Below are positions 28,559-59,200 of a DNA stretch of 64,000 bases, piece after piece. A program made the position numbers and the translations under genes. The stretch comes from Zygnema cylindricum (Eukaryota; Streptophyta; Zygnematophyceae; Zygnematales; Zygnemataceae), in assembly GCA_037447655.1 (NCBI GenBank), contig JBBHKE010000546.1, positions 49,568-113,567 on the forward strand, in the 5' to 3' direction. Below the pieces are notes generated by a model, which searched no databases, had not been told where the DNA came from, and saw nothing but the letters and a program-made list of their open reading frames with translations. How positions within the stretch are numbered: position 1 is the stretch's first letter; each line of letters starts with the position of its first letter.

Positions 28559-29550
28559 TGAAATCACTAGATTTAGGTGAGATATTTTCTAGGTCTTAAT
28601 TAAAACAAAGAAAATAAAAACAGAGGCAGCCTACCTCCACCTTCTCTCTTTGGCCCCCACACTTGTTGTAGTCACTGAAGGAGAGAGAGGGCGGTGGAGC
28701 CATGGCTGCTTTAGCTCCATAGGCAAGGCTTAAGAGTGACCTAAGTCACTCTCAACCAAAAAGGTTGAGTCCTGCAGGACTCGAACCTCCAACCGGTAGG
28801 GCGAGGCATAGCCGTTAATTCTTACCAGTTTGTCGTAGTAGTACGTTAGGATACATGGGGTTCGATAGCTATTTATACAATAGATAGACGACTAAATCCG
28901 ATTAACGAAATTACAAATAGGAAAACTAGAAACTAGTTGGGGAATTTAGTGCTAACGAAACAAATGTATCGAACATTTGTTTTGAACGGCTGAGAATTAA
29001 AACCGAGTTGGATCCAACGGCTCACATCAATGCCGAGATCCAAGAATGGCCGCTTTGGGGGTTTTCGGATGTAACATGACCTGGCGACACGTGGCAATAT
29101 GTCATTCGGAAACTGGAATCCTGGGGAGCGTGAGGACAAGTCCGGAGGAGACAGACGTCCACTCCATGGCCTTGTCGTACACAGGCCGTACAGAAAGTAC
29201 ATCGGCCATAGTACCTTCTGTACTATACAGTCTTCTGATTAGTTCCATACATCAGTATATAGGGGTTGTGAGAGGGTTTAGAACTTAGTGAATTGAGGAG
29301 GTAGCCACCTCTCTCTCAACAAGCTTGTATAAATATTGGCACCTTTTGCCACTCAATAATTAATCGCCTGGTTAGGCGTTTTCAGTGATTCCTTTTTCTG
29401 TGGACTCAGGGGAGTCCAGACTGCACAGGGGTGCACTCAGATTATCTATTTATCTGATAGGGTAGCAATTGCTCTCGTTGAAAGTGGGTTAGTCAAAAAC
29501 TACCTAGAGGCTTCCTCAATTTTGGTCCAAATGGATGACACAGAATTGCA
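28559..29550 (+). mobile_element. Copia-type LTR A (5' LTR of element 2)
   Basis: Begins TGAAATCAC and ends GAATTGCA, directly followed by a primer-binding site. Its early part (TATTTTCTAGGTC, GAGGCAGCC, CCACACTTGT, GTCACTGAAG) is shared with LTR-B (39631), LTR-C (minus, 30610-31150) and LTR-D (60986). A TATA-like TATAAATATTGG occurs near 29328, and CAGGGGAGTC near 29407 is shared with LTR-B. About 992 bp, close to the 982 bp of LTR-D. An antisense B-box-like motif lies at 28772-28786. Confidence 0.65.
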
Positions 29551-29574: not shown

Positions 29575-30605
29575 GCCCATATTCACGGATGTGGATTCAT
29601 TTACTGGGAAGCTATGATGACAGGGGCATTATGTGAGAAACGATACTGGGGTATTGTTCGTGGACAAGTGAAACATCCATCTCAAGGAACTCCACCAGGG
29701 TTTGGAGAAGTGAGGTTTTTCTGCAGCAGGATCTGCTCGAACGGAGGAGAGAGATGATGGGGACAGCAGTGTGTCCGAAAAAGGGAAAGGAAAGGAGACA
29801 CCTCTCACTCCTCTTGCCATGGCACCCGGAGCGATGGCCGTGAAGACCGAGGAAAACGACATTCAGATGTGGGAGTACACCAACATGAATGCCAGGCACT
29901 TCATTCTGAGGCACCTCACCCAAGCGTTAGCAACTTCTCACCTTCAAATCTTCAAGGCCGAGGAGTTGTGGATGACCTTAGTGGAGATCTATAGAGCTGG
30001 CACCATTCAGGAGCTTGAGCTGGCTGAGCAAAGGCTGATTAGTTATACTTTCAAAATAAGAAAGATGTTGGACTATTGCACCGATCTCTCTTGTCTATAC
30101 ATGGAGATGGAAAGTGCCGGATGGACAGGCACTATGAAGATGAAAGTTAACACTCTCATCATGAAGTTTTGGGAGGAGTATGAAAATATAGTATACCGAG
30201 TGCAACAAATGGATGATAGTGCTTGGAAGTGGAGCATCGCGGTTTGAATGATACTCATACAAGAAAAGACCATTGAGACCCGAAGAGGAGGAAAGAGTGT
30301 TCAAGTTCTAGCTGCCGGAACTGACCGATGGAGGAAGGATCCGAAGAAGCCGTACCACAGCTTCAAAGGGGAAAAGGATAAATTTGGAGAACCAAGGACT
30401 CCAAAGGGCCTTTGTCATTTCTACAAAAAGCCGGGGCACTTCATAGCTAATTGCATCAAGCTATCGGAGTTGAGGCTCCAAGAAAATCGTGGAGGTGGTT
30501 CTTCCGGAGGGAAGAAGAAAGCACTTGTGGTCAGACGAGTGAAAAGAGAGACCGAGGAAGACGAGTCCTCCGAGGAGGAGGATAGGGAGCTTCTTCTTGA
30601 AAAGA
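29575..30605 (+). pseudogene. Ty1/copia element 2: gag with zinc knuckle, truncated
   Basis: After the primer site, shifting frames give a gag start, then the open frames 29771-30247 and 30248-30790. The capsid-like part has LAEQRLISYTFKIRKMLDYC near 30020-30080. The zinc knuckle at about 30412-30456 reads CHFYKKPGHFIANC, with Tyr replacing the second Cys, so it is probably defective. An acidic Glu-rich stretch follows. Homology with element 3 (35215 onward) stops at about 30605, where an inverted LTR begins. Confidence 0.7.
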
Positions 30606-31150
30606 ATCCCGAAATCCTCTTCCGCAATCTCGGCGTTAATTCCGGCCGTCCGATTAAATTCATATTTAATCGTAGCCGTAATAAATGCATGTGCGATATT
30701 CTTTTCTATAAAGAAACAAATGCGCGGTATTGGTTTCTTATCCATACCGCTATCCGTACTTTTACAATTATGGATCTATGTCTCCCCTAATCAGTTATAG
30801 TTAAATGAATTTTCCTACTTAATAACATTTAAATAAATATCATACCCTACATTACGTAACATTCGATGAAGACTTAACGGCTAAAGCTACCGTCTACCGT
30901 CTGCCTGCCGGCCGGTAGGTACAAGGATCAAATCCTGTAGCCGGCACCATATCCTATTAGTAATAAAACCCCTAACTAATATATATTCCCGTAAACTTCT
31001 AGTTAGCCTAGGTAGCTATGGCTCTAGCTCCCTCTCCAATTTCTGAATGACTGCGACAAGTTTGAGAGTTGGAGAGAGAAGTTAGAGGTAGACTGCCTCG
31101 GCTTCTTTCTATATTTCTATTTAGACCTAGAAAATACTTTAAATGGATCA
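30606..31150 (-). mobile_element. Inverted copia-type LTR fragment C
   Basis: Read on the minus strand from 31150 it gives TATTTTCTAGGTCT, GAGGCAGTCTACC, CTCTCAAACTTGTCGCAGTC in the order found at the starts of LTR-A, B and D. It is the 5' half of an LTR in inverted orientation, joined at about 30605 to gag of element 2. At 30925-30953 is a tRNA-like arm (AAGGATCAAATCC and a following GCCGGCACCA). Confidence 0.6.
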
Positions 31151-31259
31151 TTATGTGTTGGATTGGCACGTGAAGCCGGTCCAATACGGGGTAGAATATG
31201 GAATATCCATACTCGAGCTGCCCGTAATAAATGGGTACGGACCCGCCAGTCTCTACATC

Positions 31260-31331
31260 GAGCTGGTGGCACAGTGGTAGTGCGTTCGCAGCTGAAGTGA
31301 AATGTCCCAGGTTCGAACCCTGGCTGGCTCT
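31260..31331 (+). ncRNA. tRNA-like sequence in left LTR of TRIM
   Basis: Folds by hand into a cloverleaf: acceptor GAGCTGG/CTGGCTC, D stem GCAC/GTGC, anticodon stem TTCGC/GTGAA, variable loop ATGTC, T stem CCAGG/CCTGG with loop TTCGAAC. The A box region (TGGCACAGTGGTAG) and B box (GGTTCGAACCC) match Pol III internal promoters. The anticodon would be CTG, but position 33 is G rather than the near-universal T, so this is a tRNA-like domain and not a normal decoding tRNA. Confidence 0.7.
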
Positions 31332-31384
31332 AATTTACCCAAGTGTGGGACATGCCGAATCCCGGATTTATAGGAAATCTAACA

Positions 31385-31397
31385 TGGTATCGGAGCC
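31385..31397 (+). other. TRIM primer-binding site (initiator Met 3' end)
   Basis: TGGTATCGGAGCC starts at the first base after the left LTR, complementary with one mismatch to the 3' end of plant initiator tRNA-Met. Confidence 0.8.
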
Positions 31398-31545
31398 AGC
31401 GGGATTGCGGATGGTTTGACCGGCTTTTTCGTGAGGGGGGGTATTGGATTGGCACGTGAAGCCGGTCCAATACGGGGTAGAATATGGAATATCCATACTC
31501 GAGCCGCCCGTAATAAACCAGTACGGACCCGCCAGTCTCTACATC

Positions 31546-31617
31546 GAGCTGGTGGCAGAGTGGTAGTGCGTTCGCAGCTGAAGTGAAAGGTCCCAGGTTC
31601 GAACCCTGGCCGGCTCA
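31546..31617 (+). ncRNA. tRNA-like sequence in right LTR of TRIM
   Basis: Same cloverleaf as the left LTR copy with acceptor GAGCTGG/CCGGCTC and discriminator A, variable loop AGGTC, and intact T arm. One D-stem pair is lost (GCAG). The two copies differ at several bases, yet the acceptor, anticodon and T stems stay paired in both. Confidence 0.7.
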
Positions 31618-31689
31618 AATTTACCCAAGTGTGGGACATGCCGAATCCCGGATTTATAGGAAATCTAACACAGCGGCTCACATGGCGAC

Positions 31690-34667
31690 AACTTAGCGGA
31701 AGTTGTCAACAGTAGCGTCCTAGCCGGAGGGGTAGAAGCAAATCCACCAGTAGGATTGGAATTCGACATTAACTATAAGGTAGACCGCTTGAGGCTAGGG
31801 CTGCTGTAGAGCTTGGGAAAATGGATTGGACCCTAGGGGAGCAGTTGGATCCTCAGCAGAAGGCGCAACTTTTCGAGCTATTGGCCGAAAACAAGCAGGT
31901 GTTCTCATGGTCAGAAAAAGATGTCGGTATTTACAGAGGAACACCTTTCCGAATCGATTTGATCGACGAGACGGCTACTGTTTTGCAGAAGCAATATCCT
32001 CTCAGTTTCAAAGAAACAGAATTCATCACGGCCAAAAGTCCAAACTTTGGTGGAAGTCGCATTGGTTCAGGAAAGTACCGGACTTCATGGGTTCACTTCC
32101 CCGACAGTTCTCCCTCCCAAGAAGAACTCTTCCGGGAAGACTATAGATTTCCGGATATGTGGAGATTATCGCATGCTGAACACGGCCACCATCTCTGATC
32201 GGTATCCGATGCTGACTCCGGAAGAGATATTAGACTCTCTTGCTGGCGCCATTATATATTCCACTCTATACATGAACAATGGTTTCCACCAGATTGCCAT
32301 GGAACCAAAGCACAGGGAGAGAACTGCATTTTGCTCTGGTTCCTGACTTTATGAATGGATTTACATGCCCTTCGGGCTTAAGAATGCACTGGAAAAATTC
32401 CAACGGGCACTGGACGAAGCGCTCCAAGGAATCGATTGTGCCTGATGCTATATTGATGATGTTATTATATTCTCAAAGACTTTTGAGGAACACTTGGAGC
32501 ATATCCAGATCGTTCTCGGGGCACTCCAAGCAGCGGGCTTCAAATGTCGCCCGGGCAATGGCATTTTTGGGGTAGAGAAAATCATTTACCTCGGACATGA
32601 GGTGACTCCCAGGACTGTGGGTCCCCACATGGTAAAGGTGGCAGCCCTTGATGCTCTTCCCCCAACAAACGACATCTCGGCCCTTCACACATTTTTTTGT
32701 TTGGCTAATTACTATCGGCGGTTCATCCACGAGTTCCGTAGTCACGCCCAAGCCCTTAACCAGCTATTGCGAAAGGACCAAGAGTGGGAGTGGGCCGAAA
32801 AACAATAGATCGCTTCCAGTTCTTCAAGGATGCTTTGAAGCACCACCCCGTGCTCCGGATGCCTGCTCACTAGAGACCTTTCCTCCTTTATACTGATTCG
32901 AGCAAGTTTGGATTGGGAGCGGTTCTGGCTCAAGTCGATGATGCCGGAGCTGAATATGTGGTGGCCTACGCCAGCCGGAGCAACAACAAGGCAGAGGGGA
33001 ATTATAGCAGTTACCACAGAGAGTTACTCGCAGCGGTTTGGGCCATCGAGCATTTCCGACCTTATTTGTACGGAGTCCATTTCACCTTGATTACGGATCA
33101 CCAACCTCTGAAATGGATCATGGAAAATAGTAAGTAAACCGGCAACCTCGCCTGATGGGTTGTTGTCTTGCAGGAATATGATTTCGACATTGTTCATAGA
33201 GCATGGGAAATCCATGGGAATGTTGACAGACTTAGCCGGAATCCTGATCCTTTCACCATGGATTCTACCGGGCTGGATATGATGAGGACCCTGAGATCAG
33301 TCTAGGAATCATTCGATCATCCTTTGCTTTCATCTAGCTTCCCCAATCTAGGGGGGAACTGTCAAATTTCTCGGCCGACGTGGAGGGGCAGGCGCCCATA
33401 GAGGCCGGACAAAAGGACATCTGAAACGACCCAAATGCTCTCTTATCTATCGAGCAAGGGTTGCCTCTTCCCCACTTGAATAGAATTCAATTATCCCAAG
33501 TACAGACTCGGATGGCTCCGTATGATTGGGAAAAAGGCGTTCTCCTTCGAAAATGGTCAAACGGCACGAGGAAAGTGGTTCCTATCCCCTTTGACTGAGA
33601 AACTCTGATTTCCAATCTCCCTCGGCAATGTGGACACTTTGGGCAAAAGCGGACCACTTCCCTGGTTATAGGCTCTTTTTGGTGGCATGGGTTGCGGACC
33701 CAAGTCAACCGAATTGTGCAAACTTGCTCCTCATGCGATCGAATAAAGGCAGCTTTTGACAAAAAGGGCGGGACTGAGCTTCATTCGCTTTCTATCTGGG
33801 GGATGTTTTATTGGTGGTCGTTGGATCTTTTGGGACCTCTTCCAACCAGCAGGGGGGGGGGGGGCGTGTGCTAGTCATGATAGAACATTTTTCCAAGTGG
33901 ATCGAGTTGGTGGTTTTGCCTTGGAAGGAGTCCAAGGCAATTGCAGATGCCTTTTTGCAACGGGTTTTAGCCCAATTCGGGGTGCCTGCGGAAGTTCTAA
34001 CCGACCAAGGCTCCGAATTTGCCAGAGAATTTTCCAACCTCTTAGAAAAATGCCTAGTCGACCATCGGCTTACCAGCCGTGACCACCCTCAAGTCGACGC
34101 TTTGGCCGAAAGGTGTGTACAGACTGTGAAGCGGTCACTACGAGAATATGCAGTTGAATAAGATTTGGGGGAGTGGGACAAGAAAGTGCCTTGTATTGCT
34201 ATGGGTTACAGATTCAGCAGACAAGCTTCTCTCCACTCCTATAGCCCTTATTTCATTCTATTTGGACGACATCCCATCTTGCCCAGAGCTGCATCGGACT
34301 AAGCGGTGGTCCCTCGGAGATGGATGACAAGGGGACAGTCGAAAAACTGATCCTCGACAAAGCCAAGATATTCCACAGAGAGATGCCTCTTGCCATGGGC
34401 AATTTGCAGGCGGCTCAACACCGAGACCACTTCTGGTATTCTCAACGTCGGAGCGCGAATTATATGCCCTGGCAGCGACGATTATTGCCGGGGGACTTTG
34501 TATATCGTATGCAACAGAAGAATGACACGCTGGATATTTCTACTGGGAGAGTAATTTTGAAAGTGGTTGAGGTTTCTAACAAAGGGGTTCTTACATTGGA
34601 GGGAAAGGATGGTCGACGAATTAAAGAGAATCACATCAATGTGGCCCCCTGCCATATTCTAGGATAG
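31690..34667 (+). pseudogene. Ty3/gypsy pol, gag missing, frameshifted
   Basis: The segment starts abruptly next to the TRIM with no gag. Order: region upstream of RT (WTLGEQLDPQQKAQLFELLA, 31821), reverse transcriptase with MPFGLKNALEKF (32367) and YIDDVIIFSK (about 32449-32480), RNase H with LYTDSSKFGLGAVLAQ (32890) and ITDHQPLKWIME (33089), and integrase with LDLLGPLP (33820), LTDQGSEFA (34000) and an ERCVQTVKRSL segment (34110). A C-terminal piece (34320-34667) has LLPGDFVYRM and GVLTLEGKDGR motifs. RT-RNase H-integrase order is that of Ty3/gypsy (Metaviridae). Stops at about 32445, 32807 and 34159 and frameshifts inactivate it. Confidence 0.8.
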
Positions 34668-35205
34668 GAACACGAACCCACTTTCCACTTAACTTACTTT
34701 GCCGATCCTCCTTCGTATTCATCAGCTTGCAATCAATCCTCCCAGTTGCACGACATATTGGTCTACAATCAGTGTGGTCAATTTTGGCATTAAGCGTGTC
34801 TCCCCTCCTCTTGGGAGCCACACCCTCTACGCTGCAGCATCTGGTTCTGTGGGAACTGCAAATAGAGCGGGTAATTGTTTTTATATCTTAGTCACGCTTG
34901 ACTAAGAGGGGGGAAAATTGGGATATCAGCCCGATTACCGAGACCCAAATCCCTTCCCCCCGCCTGGGGGGGGGAAGGAAGGGGGAAGGGATAACTTTCG
35001 CCTTCCCCTTGCCCTCATCTTTATTCCCTGTCCAAGCATATCTCCTATTTTGCATGCATATCTATGGGAGGGATGGGGCAACAGTGGGCAAGATCATCAC
35101 TTCGTGAAGCATTCGCATTCGAGGTTTTTTTGCAGGACTCCAATGCCGACAACTCCGGGCTGTGGGCCCTTCCCTCACAGTAATCACGCATGCTCGACAC
35201 AGGGG
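34668..35205 (+). other. Possible gypsy 3' untranslated tail and LTR fragment
   Basis: AAGAGGGGGGAAAA at about 34902-34915 could be a polypurine tract, followed by TTGGGATATCAG. C- and G-runs at 34950-34990 form a hairpin. No second copy of this sequence is present in the window, so an LTR cannot be proved. Confidence 0.3.
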
Positions 35206-38200
35206 CAAAAAAATCAGACCGAGGAGTTAGGACTAAAGACTCCCAAGGGTTTGTGCCATTTTTGTAAGAAACCAGGGCACTATATGGCTGAGTGCACTAA
35301 GTTAACCGAGTTGCGGTTAAAGGAAGGGCAGACCGGTGGACCCCCGAGAGGAAAGAAAAAGGCCCTTGTGACACAAGTACATGAGGCGGAATCTGAGGAC
35401 GAGGATGATGAACTCCTATTGGATAAGGAGTTGGAAGAGAAGAAAGAGGTCAAAATTACACGAAAGCAGAAATGTGCTTTCGCTGGATTGAAAGGTGAAG
35501 CATGTTGGATTGTAGACTTAGGTGCATCCATGCACATGTGTAAAGATAAACACCTGTTCCCTAAGATAAGAAAGATTCCCACCGTAGAGATAGTGTACGG
35601 GTATTGGAGGATTGTCACTACTACTCTTGTAGGATCCGTAGATCTAAAAGTGTTAGTAGAAGAAAATCCATCCATAGTTACATTCTCCAATGTATTGTTT
35701 ATTCCAGAGCTGAACAAAAACCTCATCTCTACGTCTGTATTAGATGATAAGGGTTTTGATACTAGCACTAGGAAAGGAGTCTTTACTACTAGTTTTGAGG
35801 AGGAAGTTTATTTTACTGTTGAAAAAGGTAGCCAAGGGATGTTTAGGTTGATTTTGAGCAATGAAAAGAAGAAACTTTATTATGCTGGTGTTCATGAGAT
35901 AATGTTGTGGCACAAGAGGCTTAGGCATGTGAATCTAGATAAGTTAAGAGAGATGAAAAAGATGGGAGTAGTGGAAGGGATTCAGTTCGGTGAGAGTAAG
36001 AATCTAAGTGATTGTAGTGGATGTGCTCAAGGTAAAGCACACAGGTAACCCTTCCCAAAAACTGCCACCTATAAGGGAGAAAAGATCCTAGATTTAGTAC
36101 ACACAGATATTTGGGGGCCAGCCAGAGTGCCATCACCCGGGGGGGAGAGATTTATGATGACTATCACCGATGATTAGTCTCGATATTCAAGGGTTTATTT
36201 TTTGAAAAAATAAGTCTAAGGCTCATGAATGTTTTAAACAAAATAAAGCATGGAGTGAAAAACTCCATGAAACCTTAATCAAGAGAGTAAGGTGTGACAA
36301 TGGTGGAGAGTATACCTCTAACCAGTTTGAGGATTTTCTGAGAGAAGATGGAGTGCAACACCAAAAGACAATTCTTGAAAATCTAGAGCAGGATGGTGTA
36401 GCTGAAAGATTAAATAGAACACTGAGTGACAGTGCTAGGAGTATGATGTCAAATAAGAAGATAGGAAAGAAGTTTTGGGTTAAAGCAATGAATTGTGCAA
36501 ATTTTCTCAAAATTATAGTTCTTACTTCAGCTGTAAAAGACCAAACACCCTATGAGAGATGGACAGCCCGAAAACCATATATTTCACTCTTAAAGGTTTT
36601 TGGTAGTCAAGTGTTCAGTTTACACACAAATTGGTCAAAATAGAAGTTAGACCCAAAAGGAAAACTAGGATATCTACTAGGATATGATGAAGATGTTAAA
36701 GGATATAGAGTCTATGATCTCAAAAGAGAGGATATTATCCTGGTGAAACATCTAGTGGTTATGGATGAAGGAAAATCTATAGAGCCCTTTAAGCATACAA
36801 AGACAGTCAGAATCTAATTTGAGTCAGAAAATTTTGATGACTTTGAGCTTCCTAACTATCCAGGATTTCAAGAAGATGATGATCTTGCAGGTACAGATAA
36901 GATCGAGAAATAATCAAATGTGAAACCCTTAGTATTAACTCCAACCGAAGCGGAAGACGTGGTGGATATTGACCCGAAATCAAGGGAAAAGGGAGAAGTA
37001 GAAACTCTTCGGAAGAATCCAAAAGAGCCATCTATTCCGGCAACCGAGTTTGAGGGATGGAGAAGAAGCAGCAAAAGACTGGAAGATGGGCAAGTTAAGC
37101 ATAAGGTAACCAAACTGTCCCACCCCGATGAACCTCTAACTTATAATAAGGCAATGACTTGTCCTGAGAGAAACTGGTTGAAGAAAGCCATTAATCAGGA
37201 GATGGCCTCAATTATGGCTGCCAATACATGGGAATTGATGGATTGTCTTCTTGACAAGAATCCAATTGGGAGTAAGTGGGTATTTAAGCTGAAACTCAAC
37301 CCGGATAACACCATTGAGCGCTACAAGGCTCGGTTAGTGGGGAACGGATTTCCCCACAAAGAGGGAATTGACTATGAGGAGACTTTTGCTCCGGTCGTCA
37401 GGTTTCCTTAGGTTCGCATACTCTTAAGTATGGCGGCAGCAGAAGACATGGAAGTGCATCAGATGGACATCAAGACGGCCTTTCTACATGGAGAGTTGGA
37501 AGATGAAATTTTTATGCGACAGCCCGAAGGGTTTGTGGAGTAAGGGGAGGAAAGCAAGGTATGCCGATTGATCAAATCTTTGAATAGGCTGAAACAGGCA
37601 CCCCAGAAATGGAACAAAAAACTCGATGCGTTTCTTACAGGTTTAGGATATATTCCAATCAGCTCAGATCACTCAATTTATTTGTTTGAAGATGAGGAAG
37701 GAATTATTTTTATTGCAATTTATGTTGATGATTTGCTTATTTTAAGTAAATCTATGGATAAAATAAATAAGTTGAAAAATGATATATAAGGAAGATTTGA
37801 AATGAAGGATATGGGAGAAGCAAGGTATATTTCGGGAATTCAGGTAGAGAGAGACAGAGATAGAAAAATAATAAGATTAACTCAAAAAGAGGCCAGTGGA
37901 AACATGTGAGAAAAATTCCAAATAGGCAAGGCTAATAGTTGTACCACTCCTATAGAATTAAAGAAGGGAAGTGAGGGGAGTGTGGAAGAGGGAGTTATAA
38001 TCTTAGATGATGAGGTAGGCTCAAAAGAGAAAAGATTTATGCACACCATCCTTTATAGACAAGTAGTGGGCAACCTAATATATTTCATGAATTGTACCAG
38101 TCCGTACATAGCCGCAGCTGTAGGAGTACTAAGTAGGAGTCTTAATGCTCCCACAAAGAAAGATTGGGAGGTAGCTAAAAGAGTCCTTAGATATCTCATA

Positions 38201-43358: not shown

Positions 43359-43382
43359 ATTGGAACGCTCAAAAAAAGTAGT

Positions 43383-43615
43383 ACGGACAATCTTCACAAA
43401 AATCCGAAGTACTTTCTTCAACTTACCGGTTACATACGGAGAATCTTCACAAAAATCCAAAGTACTTTTCTAAACGTACTAGTTACATACGGAGAATCTT
43501 CACAAAAATCCAAAGTACTTTCTTCAACATACCGGCTACATACGTAGAATCTTCACAAAATATCCAAAGTGCTGTACTTCGAAACATTCGTCAAAGTACA
43601 GCACCGGTTACATGG
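43383..43615 (+). repeat. 53-bp tandem repeat upstream of monooxygenase gene
   Basis: Units start at 43383, 43436, 43489 and 43542, exactly 53 bp apart, each with GAATCTTCACAAAA, CCAAAGTACTTT and a closing GGTTACAT. The fourth is longer and diverged. The array sits 235-467 bp before the ATG, so it may lie in the promoter; a cis-regulatory role is inference. Confidence 0.85.
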
Positions 43616-43849
43616 GCCACGTACGGTAGACGGTTAGCTGCGTGGCTTTGAATTCGATACAGTAATACTGTCCTGTTCCGTACAATATGTACTGTAAAGA
43701 ACTGTAGCGGTCAAAGTTCAAAGTCGGGCAGCTCTCGGCGATATCATCTTGCAAAGAAAAGACGCTCGAGCGACGCTTCGGGCGACCGCATCTCCCAGCT
43801 TCACCGTCATCCTTCCTGCTGCAGCTGCGCCATTCTTTTTATCTGCAGC
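43616..43849 (+). promoter_or_regulatory. Proximal promoter and 5' leader of monooxygenase gene
   Basis: Between the tandem array and the ATG lie GTAC-containing motifs (CCGTACAATATGTACTG near 43678-43694) and a C/T-rich leader (43790-43840). No convincing TATA box was seen. The start context GCAGCATGGCGG is favourable for plant translation. Confidence 0.35.
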
Positions 43850-44209
43850 ATGGCGGCTTCCCTTCTCCTCCACCTCCCTTCCATCGGATCCTTCTCTGCG
43901 TCGACTCAATCTCCTCGCGGCGTTAACAGCACTATTTGTTGTCCTAAAACGAGGCAATCTTTTTCTGCGATCCACGCCAAGCAGCTGTACGGATCACAGG
44001 TTAAGACCGCGACCGATGCCGAAAGTACATCTTTTTCAGTCCGTACGATCGCAGTCGTACCCGTCCGAAAGCCGTACTGTCCTGTGAGAGCTTCCGGCGA
44101 GGAGAATGGCGCGCGGAAGGAAAGGCTGGAGTCGGTGGCCATAGTCGGAGGAGGTTTGGGAGGACTGGCGACCGCCATAGCTTTGCGAAGCAGAGGAATC
44201 AATGCGCAG
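43850..44209 (+). CDS. Monooxygenase exon 1 (residues 1-120)
   Basis: Transit peptide and FAD-binding GGGLGG. Ends CGCAG before donor GTAGGT; phase 0. Confidence 0.85.
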
Positions 44210-47200
44210 GTAGGTGTCGGAAACCATTTTTTAAACCAGTTTTCTGAACAAGTTTTGAAAGACGTTTTAGAACAAGTTATGATGATATAATTTATGAAAC
44301 AGTTTATGACAATTTTCGAAACAAGTTATGAAACAAGTTTTGCAGTGGAATACCTAATAATGATTCAATTCAGCACTTGCTGTTAAATATTAGAAGTGTC
44401 GGGCATTAAAGCTCAAAATTCTAAAAAGTAAATCGCAAAGCTGAGTAGTGGACTGCGGAAATCGACCATGAATATTGTTTCTTCATTTTCAGCATCAGCT
44501 GACACGTGTCAAAGTTGGAAACTGACGTCAATATCAATCATTGCATATCAATGTTTGACGGAGAGGAACTCTCTCTTGCCATGTTTACAGTAATTCTTGT
44601 CGGTCTTGTGTCCAGTATATAAAAAAAAGGGAAGACAAAAAATATAAAAACAACAACGCTTAGCATGTTGCAACATTAGTGGACGACAAGGCGGGATTGG
44701 TTCAAGAACTGATCAAATCTTTTTTTAGTTTCTCTTTTTTTCAACCCAACGTCTCCTTGTGAGGTAACTGCGAGTAAGAACCACAGTGAATGTAAAATAA
44801 AAACCAATTCGGATTATTATTTAGTATCAATAATATTTGTTTTCTTTCATTCTATATGTATGCAATGCTTTCTGAGTATCAAATCCATTAATCTTGAGTA
44901 AATCTTTTGAGTCGAACAAATGTCGGTGGGAAGTACGGTTGGTGGCACCATTGTACTTCCTCTGGACACTCTCTCCTATCCCCTGGGCCTTGATTGGCTC
45001 CCGGTAGATCACAATTTTGATGATCTTGTGATAATGACATTTCAAAGTGGACCATTTTACATTTGGACACCGTCCACTGCGATGTTGATGCTGATCGGTT
45101 TCTTGTTTTTGATAAAATACCAAAAAAAAAAAACAAAGAAGGAAATGAAGGATGCCATTAAAGAATCTGTGTAGTTGAAAACTGTATATGTAATTTGCCC
45201 CGTTTATAACTGCACTTCTTGGTGGACAAAAAAAAATTAACCTGACAATTATTGAAAGTAAACATTTAAGAGCATGATTTTAATAGTGTTGGTGCTATGA
45301 TGATTTTAGGGGATTCATATAAATGGAGTTAAAAGCATTAAAAGGGCGTAAATATGTGATGGCAATTGTACCTTCAATTTTCGGACCAATATGTTGTTCA
45401 CAAATTTCCTTTTTTGCACAATTAGCAGAAAATATATTTTAGCCCTTTTGAGCCCTGGAGTGGCTTGTAGGTGGACCTTTTTCTCACTTGGTTAGACATT
45501 AGGACTTGAGCATCGAACGGTGTTTTGGAAAGTAGATAGTTTGGCCTATCTATTGAAAATATAGTCAAGCACTAAATGACAAACTTAATTTTGAAATTTC
45601 GCTTATCAATTGTCAAACATCGAACCGGAAAGGTCCAATGTTGTACACCACACCTCGTACAGCTATCAGTTATTTCTGGCCTTTAAAATCAATTTTCTCC
45701 GTGCACACTTGTCTTATTTTTAATCCAACAGGAACTATAGAAGGTGAAATTCTTACCTTCTGATTGGCAATCTCCAAATGGACACCTGTGCAAGTAGAAA
45801 ATTTGATTTATCACGCAAATAAGGATACACAATGGACTCATTGATCTTAGAAGTACGCACTCGTTCCATATTCTTGTACTCGTTCCATATTCTTTGCTTG
45901 TTTTTCAGTGAACAACCAACTTTCACGAGGATAATGATGACGCATCTAACCTCATTTCTCTTAAAATTTGCCCTGAGCTCTCAAATCTAATTTCGAACAA
46001 CATCGAATCGAGAAATAGAACACTGAAATTTTAGTGTCCACGATGTGTTAAGTCACCATGAACAACGAAGTTAAGAAATTGAATATCCCTTGTGGCGTCT
46101 ATCATCGCTTAGGCTTCTCTTGTACTTGTTTGGTAAGAACGTGTAACGAGTATTCGAGTTTCAGCTTATTAAATCAAACAAGATAAAAAAACCTGCATTC
46201 TGTCCTCACTTTCCACCAGGTGTATGAGAAAAACCCGACCATTATGGGGGGAGAAGGAACACTTTTATCGCTGTTCCCAAATGGCATGCAAGCTCTTGCA
46301 TTGGCCGACCCCATTCTTGTCTCAAAGGTAAGAAAAAATGGGCAACGTGGCTTTGTACTATGTAGGCTTTCTTTACAGCTAATAGAGGGGCTTTTCAGGT
46401 TTTTCTTACATGTATTAGAGTTTGACGACAAGCCTTTTGAATGCTTTTGCGCTAAGGCTGGTTTTCTTTGGTTCACTTTCACTTTCTTATGTATTTTTTT
46501 CCTTTTTTCACAATTATCATTTTAGTTATAGAATTATTGCTATTTCATACTTCTTCTTTGAGTTAGTAGAGGTGCAAAGGAAATTGTACCCCAAAAAACA
46601 TGCTTTGTTTTTAGTCCAATTTTGCCAACAATATCAATAACTCTGAATTGGTTTTTTCTTAACGCTAATTCTTTTAAAGATTCAGAATCAGCCACGTCAT
46701 CTGGACCTGAATTAGAGTTAGTAACAGTAATATAAGCCCCACTCTAACAATTCCTGTACGCTAATAAGGATTGCTTCACAGCTCAAAGCAGCCGGAGTTC
46801 CGAATCCTGTCAGTCGTTACTACACTCCAGGAGGAGAGTTAGTAACCAATGCGGAAATAACTACGAAAATGGAAGAAATATATGGTTACCCGATGCTTGC
46901 GATTCGATGGAGGGAGGTTCTTAATATTCTGTACCAGTCTCTTCCTCCCAGTTGTATTCACACAGGCTATGAGCTTGTGGGAATTGAACAGGTAAGTGGA
47001 GGAAAATATCGAAGTTTCTCATTTATTTTTTGTTATTGTGATGTTTTTCAAACCGTACAAATTGTGTAAATTTCTGCTATATAAATAAAATCTCTGTTTC
47101 ATGGATTATTGCAGTAGGAAGTTATTTTGCAATTTACAAGGTTAAAAAATAAATACATATGTATGAATGTATTTCCTGATGTATGTCAGGACTTAAAATA

Positions 47201-56200: not shown

Positions 56201-59200
56201 GCAAGCGGACAAAAAGAAACAACCGTGTGCTTTTTTTCGTCGTCTACAACCTTTTAAAACTTTTGAAACTTGCGAATCTGTTTTTCTTTTCGTGAAAGCG
56301 GTGTTACTTTATTTAAAACACATCGCCGATGTGTTTTAAGATAAGTTTGAAGATGACGTGACTGTGGGTTAAAAAAACACAATACGACAACTTGTAGTAC
56401 ATCGTAAGTTCCACGATGCCGCAAATTGTACTGTACATTTTTGCGATTTCTCCGTACGGTTGTAACTTTAGCAATACGGCGCTAATCTTTTTAGGAAAAC
56501 GACAGAAAAAATCCCTTAGTTAGCCACATGGGGCCTTACCCTAAGGTACACGTAAAAATGTCATTTTGCTAATTACACAATTAAATGTGCACTCCAATAC
56601 TCCCGTTCAATTGTAGTTGTGAAAAGGGGGGAATGATAGTGGAGGTGAAAGAAATAAGGAAGAGATTGAAGGGGAGAAAATGGCCTTGAGTGAAGAGGGA
56701 AAAAAAACTATTTTGTAATGCCGAATTCAAATCGAATATAGAAAATCGATGAAGAAATTTAATAGGGAAAAAATTTGGAAAAATGTCCAATGTACAAGAA
56801 AGAATAAAATATGATATAAGTGAACACATGGTATGTAATGTTGGAGAACTGTCCACTTTGGACTCCACACGTGTGCATCGCGCTGTAAGCTGGTTCGCCA
56901 GTGCGCCGCTAATCGACGTTATATTCGATATTAGGCGCTTGCGTACACATCGGCCGGGTAGCTCAGTTGGCTGAGCTAGTTTACGGCTAGCACCAGGTCC
57001 CGGGTTCGATCCTGGCTTGGCCATTTTCCAAAGTTAATACTTTGGCGCCCATGCGATAAGTTGTATATCGCCGATTTCCAATATGTAACAAAAAATGGTC
57101 TTTGATTGAGTGGTTAAAAGTTAAAGAAGCCTTGTGTAAGAGGAAAAACAAAGGTGGAAAGTAAGCTTTGCAAAATGAAAGGGAAAGATGTGAGAAAATG
57201 GATTTGGAAAGTGACTAAAAAAAGACTGTGGAGGAAAAAAATGAGTGACGAGAAAATTAAACAAATGTTAAAATAAATGAACATAAATGTCATATGAAGG
57301 GATAATTCTCGATGACTTGAAAGGGTCAAAAAACATGGCAAGAGGATGGATGTGAGAGAAAAGGAGGAAGAGTGATTCCAAACAAAGGGTCCTCTATCGA
57401 GCCTAAATGAAAAGATGGAGAGTGAATTGGGAATTCAGTGAAGTAAATTAGGAAACTTCACAACAAGAAATGTATGTCAATAGTAGAGGGTAGAAAAGTA
57501 TCACAACATTGAATTACTTTTTGAGATAATACATATGTAAAATTTTGAATGTTATTTTTGATTTTCACATTGGTCTAAGTACGGCAATTGAGATCAAGGA
57601 ATTTTTATCTTTCTTCTTGTCGTGTTTCGACTGAAAATATGACTAATTTAAAAATATGAATACGGTTTTTTGAAGGAGAATATTTATTCCGTTATTTTAT
57701 TTTGTCACAGTTTGACAGCGGTGAAGACTCGGAAATTGATTTCGCATACTACATTTGGTAGTCTAGTCTAGTGTTTTCTATGCACTTAAAAATTAGCAAA
57801 AAGAATATTTAAAGTTTTTTTTTTAAACCTCTTTCTTTGAATTCGGTACCGAAGAATTTGTTCAGAATTATGGAAAGTTAAGGAGGACTCTTCTTAAGGT
57901 CGCCCAGAATTTTGGATCTTTTGTAGCAAACGGCATTTGTGAATGGCTACAATATTCAACTTAAATATTGTTGACAAAGCTAGTTTTGGGGTCTGTTTTT
58001 TTCACTTCGCAAATAAACTTCTCACTCTGGACCGTATTAATTACCGGAGGAAACATATATGGAATTTGGGTATCTGCCCAAATCAGTCTTATCCTATTTT
58101 TATTCTTCCAGGCTATATTACAATAAGTGGTATAGTTGTCAAAAGCTACGGAGTTTGTTAGTAAACATTGTTTCATTTAGTAAAACCGCATTTGTAAAAG
58201 TAAATGCGGGTCTTATAAAATATAGACACGTTCCTTTCCTCTTCATAAGGACTTCCAAAGCGTTACAAATCCTTCCAGATTATATCTTTTCTGTTTTTTG
58301 TTCCCCGGCAACCTCGGATTTTATGTTGTAGTCATCATTTGGGGATTTCTTTTTGTTTTCTGTTTTTGCTTTTTCAGTTTTTTCATGTTTCTGTTTTTGT
58401 TTTTTAAAAACAGATGCAGCACATGCTTTGACTCCGACACTTGGACAAGGAGCAAATTCTGCTTTCGAAGACGGATGGGAGCTCGCAGCTCAACTATCGA
58501 CAAAAAGTAATCTCCGGTAAAATTATTTCGAGTTTTTTTTCTCGTCTCTTTCCTCGTTTTCTTCTCCTTATTTCCCTCCTTGTTTCCGTGTTTTTATCAT
58601 ACTCTGTCTTTTCCTATTATTGCTTTGTCGTACATATTAAGCAACAAGCGTACAACCTTTTTTTATTTCTTGCTCGTCTTCTTTTGTCCCATTATTTCTC
58701 TGAATATCATATGTTATAAACCTATGGTGACATATTTATAAACCCCTAAGAAAACTCCAAAAGACCCTAAGAAACATCTTTTTTGCTTCTCTATCCTCTT
58801 CCAATGTACCCCGGCTATCGTTATTAGCGTTAACAACAATAATTTGGTGCTGGTTTTCTTTGCCCTCTGACCACAAAATAGCGATAACAATACTATTTTT
58901 TTTTCCTAACGCTAATCCTTTAAACGCTTCAGAGTCAAAAAGTTAAATTAAAAATCTTTGAACGTCATTTCGAACTGAATCAGAAGTAATAACACTAAAT
59001 ATAAACCTCACACTGATAATTTCGTGACTCTAATAACGATTCACGGTCTATTCTATCAATTCCTGTTTGGTATTTTTCTGCATTGTTGTTAGTTTGACAC
59101 TCCTCATTTTCCTCCGTCGACCGCTTTGCCTCTTCTTGGATATTAATAACCTTTGATTTTCTCTATTTTGTGAATGCAAATAGCTATCCAATTCGAACTT

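Follow-up and report, generated by a model that had tools for sequence, protein, structure and literature searches.

Two families of short LTR retrotransposons, probably Helenus-type TRIMs, with a tRNA-like unit in each LTR in Zygnema cylindricum

Introduction

A stretch of 64,000 nucleotides from Zygnema cylindricum (assembly GCA_037447655.1, contig JBBHKE010000546.1, positions 49,568 to 113,567 of the forward strand; hereafter the window) contains a very short LTR retrotransposon, each LTR of which carries a tRNA-like sequence with boxes A and B. The locus raises the question of whether this sequence is a working part of the element, possibly an RNA polymerase III (Pol III) promoter, or a passive remnant, and whether elements of this kind are already known. 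TRIMs with tRNA-like LTRs were named Helenus by Kojima in 2024, from fungi, animals and one plant, and together with Cassandra and Ajax they make up TRIMp3 (PMC10886601). Pol III transcription of Helenus is expected and as yet unproven according to the same source. The first-pass annotation of the window, which knew of no described counterpart and raised the possibility of a new class of LTR element, is therefore superseded on both points. The window element is best explained, and probably correctly so, as a partly decayed copy of a Helenus-type TRIM.

The element in the window

A repeat search of the window detected direct repeats at 31155-31384 and 31441-31670, with an offset of 286 and an identity of 96%, and other genomic copies fixed the LTR boundaries (Table 1). 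These limits agree with the first-pass annotation, which had also recognised the primer-binding site (PBS) and polypurine tract (PPT) of the interior. The total length of the element is 515 bp, and the chance expectation for TGGTATCGGAGCC at the PBS is 0.07 with one mismatch permitted.

Table 1. Features of the two TRIM families in the window (window coordinates)
Feature	Position	Strand	Remarks
Family 1, 5' LTR	31156..31384	+	229 bp, TGTTGG...CTAACA; repeat search and other copies
Family 1, TATA-like TAATAAAT	31225..31232	+	-35 to -28 relative to the tRNA-like unit
Family 1, tRNA-like unit, 5' LTR	31260..31331	+	ARAGORN, Rfam; without TTTT behind
Box A TGGCACAGTGG, 5' LTR unit	31267-31277	+	Sequence
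Box B GGTTCGAACCC, 5' LTR unit	31310-31320	+	Sequence
Family 1, interior	31385..31441	+	57 bp, below coding size
Family 1, PBS TGGTATCGGAGCC	31385..31397	+	Matches the ATCGGAG variant of host initiator tRNA-Met
Family 1, PPT GAGGGGGGG	31433..31441	+	Sequence and comparison of copies
Family 1, 3' LTR	31442..31670	+	229 bp; repeat search and other copies
Family 1, tRNA-like unit, 3' LTR	31546..31617	+	One D-stem pair broken; without TTTT behind
Target-site duplication TGTAA, left	56834..56838	+	Flank of family-2 solo LTR
Family 2, solo LTR	56839..57083	+	245 bp, TGTTGGA...TCCAATA; absent from the first-pass annotation
Family 2, tRNA-like unit	56952..57023	+	ARAGORN tRNA-Val (tac); no Rfam match in this copy
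TTTT, Pol III terminator-like	57024..57027	+	Directly 3' of the family-2 unit
Target-site duplication TGTAA, right	57084..57088	+	Flank of family-2 solo LTR

The 72-base tRNA-like unit in each LTR was called by ARAGORN as tRNA-Gln(ctg) at exactly the limits given in Table 1, and in a permissive locus scan the Rfam tRNA model (cut-off 29) scored 47.9 bits for the 5' LTR unit and 48.7 bits for the 3' LTR unit; a gathering-mode scan of the whole window listed only the second of the two. In both LTRs the acceptor, anticodon and T stems are paired, G-U pairs included, as had been noted at first pass. The description of the unit as folded gains nothing from stability, as the two 72-mers are no more stable than dinucleotide shuffles (z -0.14 and -0.04), and the case for a tRNA-like unit consequently rests on the tRNA model. 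The flanks of the window copy, TTATG and CAGCG, form no target-site duplication.

Family 1 across the genome

The genome searched comprises 353 Mb in 2689 contigs. A tRNA-Trp gene (L075), the initiator-tRNA match and the plant hits of an LRR protein would suggest a land plant; the LRR protein matched many plants at about 30% identity, with other hits bearing no plant name, one of them labelled bacterial. A Copia frame and a 545-aa frame had no match at the cut-offs chosen. The pattern of the LTR end and PBS junction, with up to two mismatches, occurs 226 times (134 forward, 92 reverse; one occurrence of the reversed-pattern control), and family 1 has a few hundred copies in the genome. A search for the family gave 947 first-look candidates, of which 40 were scored and 52 matches listed; the resulting sample of 40 distinct places (44 loci minus four that overlap), with 89 full LTRs and 53 interiors, consists of the best-scoring copies and is biased toward well-preserved ones. 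ARAGORN found the tRNA-like unit at all 40 places, so that the check on other copies proposed at first pass came out in favour of the unit as a constant part of the LTR. Across ten loci the Rfam tRNA model gave 53.6 bits in 17 of 21 matches and 44-48.7 bits in the other four. An exact 33-base piece of the unit was sought in viral contigs without a match.

Exact 5-bp target duplications flank 29 of the 36 places at which both outer LTRs are complete; at two of the remaining seven, four of the five bases are alike, and at five, including the window copy, there is no duplication. At 11 of 24 places compared, at least one LTR pair is free of substitutions, indicating that movement of family 1 has been recent. 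More than one interior is present at eight places, in one case (L037) with the two about 1.5 kb apart, and at L027 and L029 five LTRs stand in a row within one outer duplication, one LTR of L029 being truncated.

Primer sites and the host initiator tRNA

Host initiator tRNA-Met was sought with a pattern covering only the start of the plant gene (23 bases), allowing up to two mismatches. Such starts occur at 10 places in the genome (reversed control, none), in the forms ATCAGAG (two), ATCGGAG (four) and ATCAAAG (four). The same forms recur after TGGT in the 53 family-1 interiors, with ATCGGAG in 37, ATCAGAG in eight, ATCAAAG in five and ATCGAAG in one, while two start otherwise. In 100 of the 226 junctions, taken in contig order and read by eye, the variable dinucleotide is GG in 58, AG in 20, AA in 16 and another in six (GA in two, AT in three on one contig, GC in one), so that 94 of the 100 listed junctions carry three of 16 possible dinucleotides, namely those of the host initiator tRNAs. 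Moreover, successive interiors within the arrays L024 and L027 (C2282 and C683) carry mixed primer-site variants. The plain reading of these patterns is that reverse transcription can rewrite the PBS from whichever initiator variant primed it. Self-priming, by pairing of the PBS with the element's own unit, was considered by eye and rejected, since the host initiator tRNA accounts for the PBS.

Signals of a Pol III transcription unit

TTTT stands directly behind the unit, at LTR positions 171-190, in 85 of 89 family-1 LTRs (81 of 89 when the search was anchored on box B). It is missing behind the unit in both window LTRs and in one LTR each of L029 and L039. A single T4 in the 286-bp repeat unit is unremarkable in itself, as 591 of 1000 shuffles had none and about four in ten therefore had at least one; given how common T4 is by chance, solely its position and conservation count. 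Of the 89 LTRs, 71 have CAA within the 12 bases upstream of the unit and 78 have TAATAAA near -35, an LTR being scored as lacking both where the script found no unit start; CAA and TATA-like words are frequent by chance. These are among the usual signals of flowering-plant tRNA genes, about 36-45% of which have CAA within 10 bases, 22-32% TATA and 67-72% poly(T) (PMC11700998, from the part of that paper available). The position of this TTTT in nearly all LTRs suggests that the putative Pol III unit is the R region of the element, as in Cassandra.

A second family

The family-1 LTR profile weakly matches the window at 56938-57034 (14.4 bits, E 0.0022), within a solo LTR of a second family (Table 1). 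A genome search for family 2 gave 305 candidates, 40 of which were scored and 52 matches listed; ten pairs among the matches listed are spaced 304-313 apart. Two loci with both LTRs define an interior of 61 bp with PBS TGGTATCAAAGCCAG and PPT GTGAGGGGGCG, and the full element is about 551 bp long. Exact 5-bp duplications are present in six of 14 distinct loci, two of which share one flank; L066 would be a seventh if its end were moved one base earlier, and at three other loci the 3' flank is the PBS itself. TTTT follows all 13 family-2 units printed, from 12 loci, the unit of L059 having escaped the script pattern. The Rfam tRNA model gave 11 matches of at most 44.8 bits among 12 loci, of which L056 and L069 had none, and ARAGORN made no call in three of 13 (L061, L069 and L070).

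A probable route of transcription and copying

The reading to be preferred, and a probable one, is that of a Helenus-type non-autonomous TRIM that is mobilised in trans, using enzymes supplied by an autonomous LTR element, and in which the tRNA-like unit and its TTTT serve as R. Pol III would start just upstream of the unit in the 5' LTR and would sometimes read through the single weak T4 behind it. The transcript would then cross the PBS and the 57-bp interior and stop at the equivalent T4 of the 3' LTR, so that the unit and TTTT would be present twice, as a repeated R for strand transfer, in the manner of the 5S unit in Cassandra. Initiator tRNA-Met would next prime reverse transcription of the usual LTR type, with proteins presumably supplied by another element. 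For Helenus this helper is expected to be an autonomous Copia or Gypsy element; no autonomous element with a matching PBS was seen among the loci examined.

What is shared between the families, and what it may mean

When family 1 is compared with the decayed family-2 copy of the window, the best local alignment covers family-1 positions 101-189 and scores 55, where the best of 500 shuffles reached 33; the piece used was one base too long. With a better family-2 copy (L067) the alignment extends over 68-189 and scores 62 (maximum 36 in 1000 shuffles), spanning ACATCG, the tRNA-like unit and TTTTCC.AAGT; in it TAATAAAT faces the family-2 sequence TATAAATT, with TATAAAT opposite the TATA-like box as judged by eye. 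These comparisons point to a tRNA-like unit common to both families at a significant level, and to a TATA-like box that appears by eye to be shared. The likeness of the PBS, PPT and LTR ends is that of any related LTR elements, and the middle of the interior aligns between families no better than shuffles.

It is unlikely, in view of this distribution, that the unit is a passive remnant of a SINE or tRNA inserted in an ancestral LTR, with the element transcribed by Pol II and the unit inert. Between the families it is the unit with TTTTCC that aligns clearly within the LTR, whereas the upstream flank alone, TATA-like box included, reaches a score equalled by 486 of 1000 shuffles and the downstream flank is slightly above shuffles (35 of 1000 reach its score). 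Moreover, a comparison of one representative unit from each family finds standard pairing throughout the acceptor, D and T stems (16 pairs). Within family 1, the evidence leans the other way: 29 of 72 sites vary in the unit, nearly as often as in the flanks (46 of 105 and 17 of 52), and covariation finds no support, as there are no two-sided pair changes and as many cells changed but still paired as broken (14 each). The minor-letter rate is 0.0066 in the unit as opposed to 0.0117 and 0.0084 in the flanks, so that the stronger conservation of the unit, one of the conditions attached to the original proposal, is weak within family 1 and becomes clear between families. An inert unit would also accord with the window copy, which counts against the preferred reading: neither of its LTRs has the T run or the CAA triplet, so that copying apparently took place from a parental RNA without these signals, unless the pattern arose by conversion or recombination at this copy, which has no target duplication. 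Finally, the unit of one family resembles that of the other no more closely (identity 46/73) than it resembles real tRNAs encoded in the genome, for which identities reach 48/73 and 52/78.

The preferred reading, in which the unit acts as promoter and R, leaves the question of whether the cloverleaf also matters as RNA, by tRNA mimicry in nuclear export, packaging, end processing or recruitment of the primer tRNA, which is quite improbable. A Pol III promoter needs only boxes A and B, not an acceptor stem. Five pairs differ on both sides between the families (three in the acceptor stem, one in the T stem and one in the D stem), with none broken, and to this extent the two-sided stem changes that had been looked for were found between families and not within family 1. 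However, ten real tRNAs of the genome (10 of 63 scored) differ pairwise by a mean of 5.6 two-sided changes in 12 acceptor and T pairs, compared with four between the families; the changes do not exceed the level among unrelated tRNAs, and selection on the fold is thus unproven. Two independent captures of different tRNAs would explain the changes equally well, and the unit has no surplus folding stability. The alignments fit such captures as well as they fit common descent followed by compensatory change, and the bases common to both families just outside the unit favour common descent. A more ambitious proposal may be entertained but is doubtful, namely that R is an entire Pol III gene extending from its start across the cloverleaf to the TTTT, that compensatory change between families has kept the cloverleaf as an RNA fold and not just as a promoter, and that the genomic RNA consequently has a tRNA mimic at either end.

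The units are no ordinary tRNAs. Position 33, before the anticodon, is U in nearly all tRNAs. That the units could be genuine working tRNA genes multiplied by the element is barely credible, despite their being called as tRNA by ARAGORN and Rfam, since position 33 is G in family 1 (loop AGCTGAA) and C in family 2 (loop ACGGTTT) and the best family-1 score in ten loci scanned is 53.6 bits, compared with 64.8-73.9 bits for 55 of 63 places scored genome-wide and 45-62.5 bits for the other eight. The family-1 unit may derive from initiator tRNA-Met, as its variable loop and T stem would suggest.

Relation to Helenus, Cassandra and SINEs

On their sequence features, both families are Helenus-type elements and a well-documented new example of the group. 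As described in the available text of PMC10886601, Helenus elements are TRIMs with two short LTRs, each containing a tRNA-like unit that has boxes A and B, and with a PBS, a PPT and a short non-coding interior, all of which is found here. The fungal and plant families make 5-bp duplications, as family 1 and family 2 do at most and at some of their loci, respectively; several families may occur in one genome, and zebrafish LTR-11_DR forms tandem arrays. The range of Helenus lengths (311-1263 bp) accommodates both families. Most Helenus families have box A TRGCY..YGG and box B GGTTC, which family 2 fits with TAGCT..TGG and GGTTC; family 1 fits at GGTTC and is one position off in box A (TGGCA..TGG). 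The only plant family listed in PMC10886601, Helenus-1_SMo of Selaginella, was compared by its described sizes and has an LTR of 120 bp and an interior of 85 bp, as opposed to 229 and 57 bp in family 1 and 245 and 61 bp in family 2. The available text of that paper contains no account of a T4 behind the unit, of a start-to-stop unit common to families or of PBS variants matching several initiator forms; 'TTTT' is absent from its main text, and both passages there with 'terminat' concern Cassandra. A full-text literature search for Helenus and TRIMp3 returned no other paper on them.

The resemblance to Cassandra that was seen at first pass holds as regards a Pol III-type unit in each LTR. According to the part of PMC7215508 available, Cassandra likewise has a Pol III unit with terminator in each LTR (here predicted), the PBS TGGTATCAGAGC, tandem arrays and no coding capacity. 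Cassandra differs in carrying 5S rRNA in its LTR; in the window no 5S rRNA reached the Rfam cut-off, tRNA being the sole family to do so. The tRNA-derived SINEs (SINE2) are also short and non-coding with a tRNA-like Pol III promoter. SINEs have no LTRs, however, and the LINE machinery that inserts them leaves target duplications of variable length, whereas the LTRs, PBS, PPT and 5-bp duplications found here are those of LTR-type retrotransposition.

Two Helenus-type families occur in one genome, and in one of them the two LTRs of a pair often show no substitution, so that the question of a working Pol III promoter, left open by Kojima in 2024, can be tested directly here. Exact RNA ends can be predicted from the T run and from the start-to-stop unit common to the families, and the primer sites indicate which initiator-tRNA variants prime reverse transcription. 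In addition, tRNA gene finders make false tRNA calls on these elements, as reported for rust fungi (PMC10886601, available text).

Surroundings of the element in the window

Decayed LTR retrotransposons lie around the TRIM at 29714-30787, 31779-34158 and 34906-37408, with a Copia gag (Retrotran_gag_2) at 29714, Gypsy-like reverse transcriptase and integrase at 32446 and 33778, and more Copia gag-pol pieces at 34906-37408. Copia frames occur near many TRIM loci, yet Copia is frequent in the genome, being present in three of six arbitrary 8-kb pieces, and an insertion preference for Copia was set aside as background. A repeat at 28787 (minus strand), also present at 2246 of L045, has the B-box-like GGTTCGAGTCC with TTTT behind it, the Copia frames nearby lying on the other strand; as a candidate tRNA-like unit it was rejected, there being no tRNA call at the site. 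About 200 bases upstream of the TRIM, AAGGATCAAATCCTGTAGCCGGCACCA at 30920-30949 resembles a tRNA-Thr of organellar or bacterial type, of which it would be the 3' half, with the CCA encoded. Further downstream, the frame 43652-44287 is a possible exon of an FAD enzyme, with weak Pfam and PDB matches only, and just upstream of it a 53-bp tandem repeat occupies 43382-43570 in 3.5 copies.
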